A stretch of DNA of 64,000 bases from an uncultured Alcanivorax sp. (GTDB lineage: Bacteria; Pseudomonadota; Gammaproteobacteria; Pseudomonadales; Alcanivoracaceae): assembly GCA_913055795.1 (NCBI GenBank), contig CAJXLA010000003.1, forward strand, positions 1 to 64,000. Direction: 5' to 3'. Shown here piece by piece: positions 36,519-44,330 of the stretch (position 1 is its first letter; each line of letters starts with the position of its first letter). Position numbers and translations under genes: made by a program. A model generated the notes under the pieces. The model was not told where the DNA came from and did not search any database. It saw only the letters and a program-made list of their open reading frames with translations.

Positions 36519-36828
36519 CGGGCGAGGCCAAAGGCGAGCCCGAATTCCATGGGCCCCGCTGAGCCGCTGAGGGCGGCGGGCGGAGCGCAGAACAGCTTCG
36601 CCAGGGATCGGCGAAGCCAGGCAAGCCAAATCGTGGACGATTTGCCTTGCCGCGTTCTGCGTGGAGCCCGCCAACCGAGGGGACCCGACCACCCAGATTC
36701 CAATTGGGTGGTCGGGCGGCGAAGCGAGGTGTCTTTTTCTTGCTTCCTTCTTTTGGACAAGCGAAAGAAGGAAGGCGCCCACCGGGGTGCGTCCCGGCTT
36801 GCCGCCCGACAGGGCGGCGCGGCAAATT
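36519..36828. repeat. Structured intergenic repeat, copy 1
   Basis: Homologous along its length to 42455-42755; stems CGCAGAAC/GTTCTGCG, GGCAAG/CTTGCC, CTTCCTTCTTT/AAAGAAGGAAG, CCGACCACCCA/TGGGTGGTCGG. Confidence 0.85.
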
Positions 36829-41236: not shown

Positions 41237-41351
41237 GCCGTCTCCGTCCCGATTCGACGCGCCATCGTGCGCCCGGCCTTCGAGTTCATTATAATGCCTG
41301 CCATTCCGGGGAGGCCCTCCCTTGATGCCACCCAGACACGAAGGAGTCAGT

Positions 41352-42332
41352 ATGAAAGCACCCGTACGCGTGGCCGTCACCGGCGCCGCCGGCCAGATCA
41401 GTTATTCCCTGCTCTTCCGCATCGCCGCCGGCGACATGCTCGGCAAGGATCAACCCGTCATCCTGCAGATGCTCGAAATCACCCCGGCGCTGGAAGCACT
41501 CAACGGCGTGGCCATGGAAATCGCCGACTGCGCCTTCCCGCTGGTGGCGGGCATGGAGCAGACGGATGATCCGCGCGTGGCCTTCCGCGACGCCGATTAT
41601 GTCCTGCTCGTGGGCGCCAAGCCGCGCGGTCCGGGCATGGAGCGCAAGGACCTGCTGGAGGCCAATGCCGCCATCTTCTCCGACCAGGGCAAGGCGCTCA
41701 ACGAAGTCGCCAGCCGCAACGTCCGCGTCCTGGCCGTGGGCAACCCGGCCAATACCAATGCCCTGATCACCCAGCGCAACGCACCGGATCTGGACAAGAG
41801 CCAGTTTACCGCCATGACGCGCCTGGATCACAACCGGGCCATGGCCCAACTGGCCATCGGCACCGACAGCACCGTCAACGACATCCGGCGCATGACGGTC
41901 TGGGGCAATCACTCCTCCACCCAGTTCCCCGACCTGCATCCGTGCACGGTCAACGGCAAGCCGGCCATCGATCAGATCAGTCAGGACTGGTACGAGAAGG
42001 AATTCATCCCGAAGGTCCAGCAGCGCGGCGCCGAGATCATCAACGCACGCGGCGCGTCCTCCGCCGCATCGGCGGCCAACGCGGCCATCGACCACATGCG
42101 CGACTGGGCCCTGGGCACCGAGGACGGCGACTGGGTTTCCATGGGGATTTACTCGGACGGCTCCTACGGCATTCAGGAAGGCCTGATCTATTCCTTCCCC
42201 TGCACCTGCAAGAACGGCCAATGGGAAATCGTACAGGGCCTGGAGATTAATGATTTCCAGCGCGAGCGCATGAGCGCCACGGAGCAGGAACTGGCGGAAG
42301 AGCGGGATGCGGTGAAGCATTTGCTGCCCTGA
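41352..42332 (+). CDS. mdh: Malate dehydrogenase
   Basis: [54 protein letters not shown]. Confidence 0.96.
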
Positions 42333-42355: not shown

Positions 42356-42390
42356 AACGGGGGAGGGTCAGCGAGCCCCCGTTTTTTATG
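42356..42390 (+). terminator. Rho-independent terminator of mdh
   Basis: AAAACGGGGGagggtcagcgagCCCCCGTTTTTT. Confidence 0.9.
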
Positions 42391-42454
42391 GTTGATCTCA
42401 CCTTAGCGGAAGTTTGCCAATCAGGGTCTGTGTAGTTGAACAAGGTCCAAATCC

Positions 42455-42755
42455 GGGCGAAGCCGAAGGCGAGCCCGTAATGGTGGGCCCCGCTGAGCCG
42501 CCGAGGGCGGCGGGCGGAGCGCAGGACAGCTTCGCCAGGGACGGCGAAGCTAGGTGAGCCAAATCGTGGACGATTTGTCTCACCGCGTCCTGCGTGGAGC
42601 CAGCCAACTGAGGGGATCCGACCACCCAATCTAAGATTGGGTGGTCGGACGGTGAAGTGGGGTGTCTTTTTTTTGCTTACTTTTTTTGGACAAGCAAAAA
42701 AACGTAAGGCGCCCGCCGGGGCGCGTCCCGGCTTGCGCCCGTCAGGGCGCCAACA
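42455..42755. repeat. Structured intergenic repeat, copy 2
   Basis: Homologous to 36519-36828 with covarying stems CGCAGGAC/GTCCTGCG, GGTGAG/CTCACC, CTTACTTTTTTT/AAAAAAACGTAAG. Confidence 0.85.
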
Positions 42756-42802: not shown

Positions 42803-44098
42803 TCAGCGCGGATTACCGGGAACCCATTCCCCCTCATTCATGCGGTCGCTGTAGTTCAGCCAGACCTTGCCGACACTGCCGTGGTAGGCCTTGGCTTCCT
42901 TCAGCTTTTCATTGTCGAAGCCATGGGTGGGCACGCTGAAGCGGTGGCTGCCGTTGGTTTCGTTGCGGCAGAGCTGCTCGCCTTCGCTCCAGGAACCGGC
43001 ATCGGCGGTGATATACCAGTCATGGCTGCCCGGCTTCTTGCAGGCAAAGCGGCGCTGGGTGGAGCAGCTCGCGTCGTTGAAGCGGCCGCTGAACAGGTGC
43101 TCGGCGCAGTCCTCGCCCGAGCCGGCGTTATTGGGTTCACCCCGGTTCCAGCTCCAGACGGCGGCTTTGAGGCGGCCATCCCAGGGGGTGAGTTTATCCA
43201 TGCCGGCCAGGTTGATACCGCACTGCATCATGGTGCGCAGCGCGGCCGGCGTAATAGGCTCGCCCGGGTCGGAGAAGGTATTGGACAGGTTCGTCCGGTC
43301 CTCGTTGATGCGCAGGATGTGCTGGTCCTGAAAGGCCCGGTTGAACTGATCCGTGGCGCAGTGCGGATAGCCACCAAGGTCTTCCACGCTCGTGGTGGGA
43401 TACCCATGGGTGTAGTCCCCCACACCACCATGCACCCAGGAGCTGAAACCGTTGGCGCAGCCGTCGGTGACGAGAATCACCTGCTTGCCCCGGGCCAGGA
43501 TTTCCGAGCGTGACTGGTCCATGGGGATGCCCTGGCAGCCGCTGCCTTCGGGCCGGTAGATCCCATCCCCGAGGTAATGGTCGAGATCGGTAATGGCGTC
43601 GTCGTACCAGCCGCCGTCGATGTGATCCTCGAGGTAGAGCAGGATGACTTCGTCGCGGTTTTCCGGCTGATCGAGCCAGTCGCGGATTTCGCGCAGGCCC
43701 TGGCTGAACGTGCGGTCATAGCTGCTGCATCCCGCATGATTGTCCTGGCCATGGCAGAGCAGGAGCTCTTTGCCCCAGTCCCAGAACCAGCCCTGCATGG
43801 AGAAATAGGTGTGCAGGTCGAACTCCAGCGCCCGGACATCCATGCGCAACTGGTCACGGATGGAACGTGACTGGTTGGGATCCACATAGCGCACGGCGGA
43901 GCTGTAGGCCGCGCTGTTGTAACTGTTGTGGGTGCCCAGGAAGGTGGCCTGTCCCAGGGGTGTGAAATCACCCAGATCGCGTTGCATCGATAAGGCCCGA
44001 TCGATCCAGCTGCCCTGGTAGTTATCCACGTCCGACGCGTGGGCACCGACCGCCAGGCTCAGCATCAACATCAGTGATAGCAGTTGCTTCAGGTTCAT
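42803..44098 (-). CDS. Secreted PI-PLC X-domain-like phosphodiesterase with C-type-lectin-like C terminus
   Basis: Signal peptide; FLGTHNSYNS, LLLCHGQ; C-terminal AVWSWNRGEPNNAGSGEDCAEHLFSGRFNDASCSTQRRFACKK. Confidence 0.82.
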   Translation of the reverse strand: MNLKQLLSLMLMLSLAVGAHASDVDNYQGSWIDRALSMQRDLGDFTPLGQATFLGTHNSYNSAAYSSAVRYVDPNQSRSIRDQLRMDVRALEFDLHTYFSMQGWFWDWGKELLLCHGQDNHAGCSSYDRTFSQGLREIRDWLDQPENRDEVILLYLEDHIDGGWYDDAITDLDHYLGDGIYRPEGSGCQGIPMDQSRSEILARGKQVILVTDGCANGFSSWVHGGVGDYTHGYPTTSVEDLGGYPHCATDQFNRAFQDQHILRINEDRTNLSNTFSDPGEPITPAALRTMMQCGINLAGMDKLTPWDGRLKAAVWSWNRGEPNNAGSGEDCAEHLFSGRFNDASCSTQRRFACKKPGSHDWYITADAGSWSEGEQLCRNETNGSHRFSVPTHGFDNEKLKEAKAYHGSVGKVWLNYSDRMNEGEWVPGNPR

Positions 44099-44330
44099 GG
44101 CTTGCCGTCCCTTCTTGGTTGTTATCAGTACCGGGGCACCCCAATTGGCACGCTCGTGCAATTTCGATTCTAGGGGGGCGGCAAAGCCTTTGGCCATGGA
44201 CTGAGCGCAAAAACAGCGAAAAGAACCAGTAATCAAAAAAATCGCTAATACCCGATACTTACGTGACTTCCGGGTCACAAGCGGAGGGATCCAATACAAG
44301 ACTGACGCGGCGGATGCGCGGGTGCGAATG

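Follow-up and report, generated by a model that had tools for sequence, protein, structure and literature searches.

What kind of sequence is the structured intergenic element that occurs twice in the window, the 64,000-nt stretch of Alcanivorax DNA analyzed here? Copy 1 (36519-36819) and copy 2 (42454-42749) are each about 300 nt long, are 86% identical and share a multi-hairpin architecture; both lie on the plus strand, taken as the strand with GGA in the hairpin loops. Copy 1 has a carboxylesterase gene (PF00135, 36850-38469, minus strand) on one side and bolA (PF01722, start at about 36461, minus strand) on the other. Copy 2 is flanked by the malate dehydrogenase gene (41322-42332, plus strand) and by a minus-strand gene (42803-44299) with a lectin-C match and a weak PI-PLC match. 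The original prediction described a two-copy intergenic RNA, spanning 36519-36828 in its first copy, with covarying stems taken to indicate selection on folding and with no named RNA family. Its start coincides with that of the element, whose sharp ends are common to 13 copies in the genome with non-homologous flanks; its end does not, the element stopping at about 36819.

The order of hairpins described in that prediction can be read in both copies. Copy 1 begins with a 5' end hairpin, CGGGCGAGGCCAAAGGCGAGCCCG (36519-36542; alignment columns 1-24), in which 98-100% of cells are paired. An outer stem, CCCCGCT..GCCG / CGGC..AGCGAGG (36554-36729), closes a junction and ends at GGTGTC; in the copies of this genome its columns 36-48 pair with columns 199-211 in 97.7% of cells, and a CCCC/GGGG counterpart is present in other taxa. 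Enclosed by it is the core, a three-way junction resembling the TwoAYGGAY RNA (36586-36661), where the stem CGCAGAAC/GTTCTGCG closes two hairpins and is itself paired in 100% of cells, with double changes in two pairs. GGA hairpin 1, GCTTCGCC-AGGGATC-GGCGAAGC (36595-36617), is paired in 99% of cells and its GGA is invariant. GGA hairpin 2, GGCAAG-C-CAAATC-GTGGAC-GATTTG-C-CTTGCC (36620-36651), is paired in 98.6%, and among the copies of this genome it shows double changes in three pairs and an invariant TGGA. The CCGACCACCCA/TGGGTGGTCGG hairpin (36684-36716; 95.2% of cells paired, double changes in three pairs) precedes GGTGTC, after which come the T/A-rich frame hairpin (36743-36774), with a fixed TTGGACAAGC loop and arms that are free to vary (double changes in four pairs among the copies of this genome), the GC-rich hairpin GCGCCC-ACCG-GGGTGC (36775-36790; 100% of cells paired) and the 3' end hairpin GCCGCCC/GGGCGGC (36801-36818; 98.4% of cells paired, one double change). 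In copy 2 the sequence shows the frame at 42659-42708: GGGGTGTC, then a hairpin (42676-42708) whose loop is TTGGACAAGCAA.

Several stems differ in step between the two copies. The closing stem of the core (36586-36593 / 36654-36661) becomes CGCAGGAC/GTCCTGCG in copy 2, GGCAAG/CTTGCC (36620-36625 / 36646-36651) becomes GGTGAG/CTCACC, and the arms of the T/A-rich hairpin become CTTAC...GTAAG with the GGACAAGC loop held constant; no change is seen in the CCAAATCGTGGACGATTTG hairpin. Both copies fold into far more stable structures than their dinucleotide shuffles (z = -7.0 for copy 1 and -9.2 for copy 2). Among the 13 aligned copies of this genome, which are related paralogues whose pair cells count copies rather than independent events, 98.0% of 1089 pair cells hold standard pairs, compared with 95.2% when the 3' letters are shuffled among copies (0 of 500 shuffles reach 98.0%) and 38-45% when partners are slid. 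Double changes are seen in 14 of 92 pairs (shuffled mean 6.0) and in 34 cells (shuffled mean 10.0), and again 0 of 500 shuffles reach either value. Since no shuffle attains these values and slid partners fall so far, the covariation is real as an observation, and alignment, shuffles and the 13 copies together confirm the predicted picture of two multi-stem copies with covarying stems and fixed loops.

Selection on folding, as the source of this covariation, is plausible rather than proven. The stems are nearly all Watson-Crick, also in the wide set: positions 1-10 of the 108 T-hairpins among the matches listed comprise 998 Watson-Crick pairs of 1080, 25 G-T, 14 A-C and 43 others. In the copies of this genome the excess of G-U over A-C minority states is weak (about 15-18 vs 6; p 0.02-0.08, borderline), and double changes could also arise if one DNA arm served as the template for the other. 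The GGA strand is about 10 kcal/mol more stable than its complement (p = 9e-18), a difference that dinucleotide shuffles reproduce nearly in full (p = 0.21, wide set). Because base composition explains this excess, folding energy was rejected as a sign of strand-specific RNA selection.

The claim that the element belongs to no named RNA family fails for the core and stands for the rest. In cmscan, the core of copy 2 (42523-42590) matches RF01731, TwoAYGGAY, at model positions 44-113 of 168, with 50 bits against a gathering score of 43 (E 3.7e-05 for the whole window). Another copy in this genome, on contig C34, reaches 50.7 bits, so some copies pass the threshold of 43; copy 1 gives no Rfam match above threshold, and the remaining 230 nt or so outside the core are covered by no Rfam family in cmscan. 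Matches to sX13 and RAGATH-28 were subthreshold (26.4 and 17.7 bits against 50 and 45.3) and were treated as chance. RF01731 was found in 22 of the 291 gammaproteobacterial genomes searched, often in many copies. Coordinates compared in two Guyparkeria genomes show that 16 of the 18 RF01731 loci listed are immediately upstream of the frame and on its strand, which argues that, at least in Guyparkeria, TwoAYGGAY forms the core of a more extensive dispersed element. TwoAYGGAY is listed in a table of Weinberg et al. 2010, and Gardner and Eldai 2014 (PMC4333381) independently matched it to the CsrA motif, a site with GGA in the loop, and predicted CsrA binding. The loops of the copies in this genome read CAGGGA(n) and GTGGAC/T, with GGA invariant in 13 of 13 copies and flanking letters unlike AYGGAY.

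A BLAST search of the genome, a 2.78-Mb draft in 169 contigs that is 86.7% complete, returned 19 matches, corresponding to about 13 full or near-full copies plus fragments. This number is limited by the assembly: breaks of draft contigs fall inside or beside copies, several of which are cut by contig ends (C145:1-271 and the ends of C24, C34, C48, C127, C130 and C134). The ends of the element are sharp and the flanks unrelated. No target-site duplication was found in ten flank pairs, where shared words average 2.5 nt vs 2.46 in the control. In the sister species (G001) the bolA-esterase and obgE-rpmA neighbours are kept, with flanks 70-77% identical, and the element is absent; the sister species has its own version of the element elsewhere, at contig ends. 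Similarly, in Guyparkeria one genome has the element in the gap between higA and an acyl-CoA synthetase gene, and in two others this gap is empty; in these empty-site comparisons the non-coding sequence is too diverged for exact insertion junctions to be read. The orientations of genes flanking the copies are random (14/14/13/13 in 54 loci, as called by a simple ORF caller). Instead of a two-copy intergenic RNA, we thus find a dispersed repeat with species-specific insertion sites, which is probably mobile.

Some copies themselves contain other repeats. A second repeat of about 270 nt, which forms a long hairpin and whose stems differ from copy to copy (e.g. GTGCCCTGCCTGCCCGATA/TATCGGGCAGGCAGGGCAC), lies inside copies L012:1374-1936, L011:1501-2064 and L004:1200-1769; its site is the second GGA hairpin in two of them, at the same position and replacing CAAATC, and the 5' hairpin in one. 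Clusters of small hairpins of about 67 nt, of the GCACTAAAGTGC and GCCTTCGGC types, are found in the T/A-rich hairpin of L008:1501-1867 and L009:1501-1868, and a sequence resembling such a cluster also occurs 3' of copy L005.

Across genomes the constant part is a frame, CCCC...GGGGTGTC followed by the hairpin with the TTGGACAAGCAA loop, which recurs across Gammaproteobacteria and sparsely elsewhere. The pattern GGGGTGTC-N(12-34)-TTGGACAAGCAA matched at least 118 stretches, of which three (L136, L141, L155) are probably chance matches. Among the matches listed are Rhodanobacter, Tahibacter, Frateuria, Shewanella, Methylomonas, Solimonas, Halothiobacillus, Guyparkeria, Thioalkalivibrio, Kangiella and others, together with a few beta- and delta-proteobacterial and Patescibacteria records. 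Relatives within the Alcanivoracaceae have the same layout with unrelated arms. The exact pattern is present in 1 to 16 copies per genome, on both strands, in 31 genomes, and the reversed-pattern control gave 0 in 31 of 31. The 108 elements of other genomes among the matches listed have 68 different 12-nt 5' arms in the frame hairpin, the loop being fixed there by the search pattern itself. The element had no match in 50,697 phage records and a single partial match in 72,556 plasmid records, and an origin from phages or plasmids was rejected. The literature searched gave no account of the element as a whole, a body that lay mostly outside subscription journals.

Arrangements of several elements were seen in two genera. 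In Guyparkeria, copies often form divergent pairs about 480-720 nt apart (G342:C1 460890/461380, 606624/607346, 610098/610648 and 1853244/1853745; G401:C1 1081251/1081729), which resemble REPIN inverted pairs. In Shewanella (L048, L064, L092, L100, L118) the element is part of arrays that also contain other repeated hairpins (GCCCATCACCTGCGGTGCG..., AGTTGCGTAGCAACGTGC...), and these arrays comprise more modules than the Alcanivoracaceae copies.

The frame encloses one of two core types, either CA(N)GGA-loop hairpins or TGTYTGA/GAGTT. Within 200 nt upstream of GGGGTGTC, the 114 elements examined among the matches listed have 169 GGA-loop hairpins vs 8 TCC-loop hairpins, and CA(N)GGA is present in 100 of 122 unique GGA hairpins of other genomes in the same list, on unrelated stems. 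This strand bias of the loops is strong, yet it could be as useful to a protein recognizing single-stranded DNA as to one recognizing RNA. TGTYTGA...GAGTT was identified in 15 of the 28 listed elements without GGA hairpins vs 0 of the remaining 86. Four copies with this core (L268-L271) occur on a 178-kb Patescibacteria contig (G350:C2), where the inner arms vary from copy to copy and the pairing is kept; others are at L059, L082, L114, L122 and L137, and the host genomes mostly lack CsrA. As a lead, the TGA/GA arrangement of this core may resemble a kink-turn.

The site bound by CsrA is A(N)GGA in a hairpin loop, with which the CA(N)GGA loops of other genomes agree. A CsrA/RsmA-binding RNA would be expected to have paired GGA-loop hairpins, preferably with A(N)GGA, and the copies of this genome have two: the loop of hairpin 1 conforms to A(N)GGA, and that of hairpin 2 is GTGGA. 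Among the sampled genomes, CsrA was detected in 24 of the 26 that have GGA cores vs 8 of the 24 whose cores are of another kind (Fisher p = 1.8e-5), an association between groups that were defined by GGA content and one that is confounded by phylogeny and incomplete genomes; eight CsrA-encoding genomes carry cores without GGA loops. No csrA match was obtained in the present draft genome (86.7% complete) or in the draft assembly of the sister species (G001), and the gene is present in all other family members searched. In the present genome lysC, the expected neighbour of csrA, runs off a contig end. Because lysC is cut there and the csrA-lysC (aspartate kinase) neighbourhood is conserved in Alcanivorax (PMC9788540), the missing csrA is likely an assembly gap.

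As to the machinery of movement, clustering of the ORFs around the 118 listed pattern loci returned only ORFs made by the repeat itself and ordinary genes, with no shared neighbouring transposase, and an autonomous transposase beside the element was rejected at these loci. A Y1 transposase (PF01797) was detected in 28 of 35 genomes. Four carriers had no detected Y1 (RAYT-type) transposase: the present genome (86.7% complete), the sister species (G001), Shewanella indica and S. corallii. Such an enzyme thus does not appear to be required, and a RAYT-driven REPIN was rejected. The element is multi-copy, sharp-ended and present or absent at orthologous sites, as a mobile repeat should be; the target-site duplication of a classical MITE was not seen, and the Y1 transposase of REPIN/RAYT systems was not detected in those four genomes.

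We lean, with modest confidence, toward the view that this is a non-autonomous, non-coding, dispersed mobile element of about 300 nt whose transcript would dock CsrA/RsmA. A constant frame surrounds a core of two or more hairpins, which in the lineage of this window have stems that vary freely and constant GGA loops on one strand (CA(N)GGA in most relatives). Read-through from neighbouring promoters would produce GGA-strand RNA, which would fold and present paired GGA loops to the homodimeric translational regulator CsrA/RsmA. Each genome would then hold a scattered set of CsrA docking sites, acting either as a distributed sponge or as a means by which the element controls its own RNA; we infer that, of the functional readings, such docking fits best. 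As to movement, single-strand or hairpin-dependent transfer in trans would be the most economical guess. A wider proposal is offered tentatively: a cross-phylum mobile family may combine one frame (CCCC...GGGGTGTC plus the TTGGACAAGCAA hairpin) with interchangeable, host-suited, RNA-like cores, in which CA(N)GGA hairpins would capture CsrA/RsmA where CsrA exists and the TGTYTGA...GAGTT core would be used elsewhere. If this is true, the element would be a selfish one that exploits the host's global RNA-binding regulator.

Mobility could also be the whole explanation, with CsrA uninvolved and the fixed loops of a REPIN- or MITE-like DNA hairpin element serving as single-strand sites for a trans-acting transposase or recombinase. 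This rather doubtful reading is consistent with the lineage-specific insertions, the missing target duplication, the insertion of hairpin elements inside hairpins and the divergent copy pairs about 400-720 nt apart in Guyparkeria. It also suits the near-pure Watson-Crick stems, which are unusual for RNA-only selection, and the presence of the frame in genomes that lack CsrA, one of them a Patescibacteria genome of 0.5 Mb with four copies. By itself, however, it explains neither the concentration of GGA cores in CsrA-encoding genomes nor the choice of CA(N)GGA over another loop sequence, and the copies showed no shared neighbouring transposase and, in this genome, its sister and two Shewanella genomes, no RAYT-type Y1 protein was detected. 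Nor need the stems themselves record selected folding: quasi-palindrome template switching or gene conversion, copying one DNA arm onto the other, is a possible but rather doubtful source of the covariation, and could account for part of it under the other explanations, with which it is compatible. The few departures from Watson-Crick pairing (998 of 1080 in the T-hairpins listed), the double changes within otherwise intact palindromes and the compositional origin of the strand asymmetry in folding energy point in this direction. Arm copying fits less well with the maintenance of multi-branch stems, in which as much as about 170 nt can separate the paired arms (columns 36-48 and 199-211), with the borderline excess of G-U over A-C states, and with loops that are conserved when arms are not.

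Two readings that place the function in the individual copy fare worse. Paired GGA loops, the RF01731 match and the prediction in PMC4333381 all favor an individually selected, CsrA-sequestering sRNA of the CsrB/RsmZ kind, as proposed for TwoAYGGAY in 2014, but copies that number 1-16 per genome, are not conserved at orthologous positions and lie at random relative to genes make this unlikely. CsrR1, an experimentally detected CsrA-related sRNA of Alcanivorax dieselolei, derives from the hfq leader. The genus of A. mobilis showed no frame copy ahead of hfq, and CsrR1 was rejected as an expressed copy of the element. A cis-regulatory leader or transcription terminator, to which the T-run 3' of the outer stem and the GC hairpins near the 3' end might belong, is highly improbable: it is contradicted by the random gene orientation, which includes divergent gene pairs at 13 of 54 loci, there is no common downstream gene, and copy 2 is itself downstream of what looks like the mdh terminator (about 42357-42386).

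Should transcripts of the element bind CsrA, as we favor, many gammaproteobacterial genomes would bear a scattered and fast-changing load of sites for their main post-transcriptional regulator, and a mobile repeat would be coupled to global metabolic control. The unexplained Rfam motif TwoAYGGAY would gain an explanation, and the CsrA prediction made for it in 2014 could be tested directly. If CsrA plays no part, the frame is still a widespread repeat, with copies at many assembly breaks.

The element resembles REP, BIME, REPIN and MITE-like sequences in being made of dispersed, non-coding intergenic hairpins that form inverted pairs in some genomes and are presumably mobilised in trans; it differs from them in its length of about 300 nt, its multi-branch structure, its loop-conserved GGA hairpins and its lack of target duplication. 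With CsrB, CsrC and RsmX/Y/Z it shares several GGA-loop hairpins, paired and on one strand. Each of those RNAs, however, comes from one gene that has a promoter and a conserved locus, whereas the element described here is dispersed over lineage-specific positions and known from sequence alone. The likeness to RF01731 lies in the closing stem around two GGA-loop hairpins, with copy 2 scoring above the gathering threshold. That family is a 168-nt model and no dispersed repeat; it includes neither GGGGTGTC with the TTGGACAAGCAA hairpin nor the GC hairpins, does not describe the many copies or their turnover, and does not match copy 1 above threshold.
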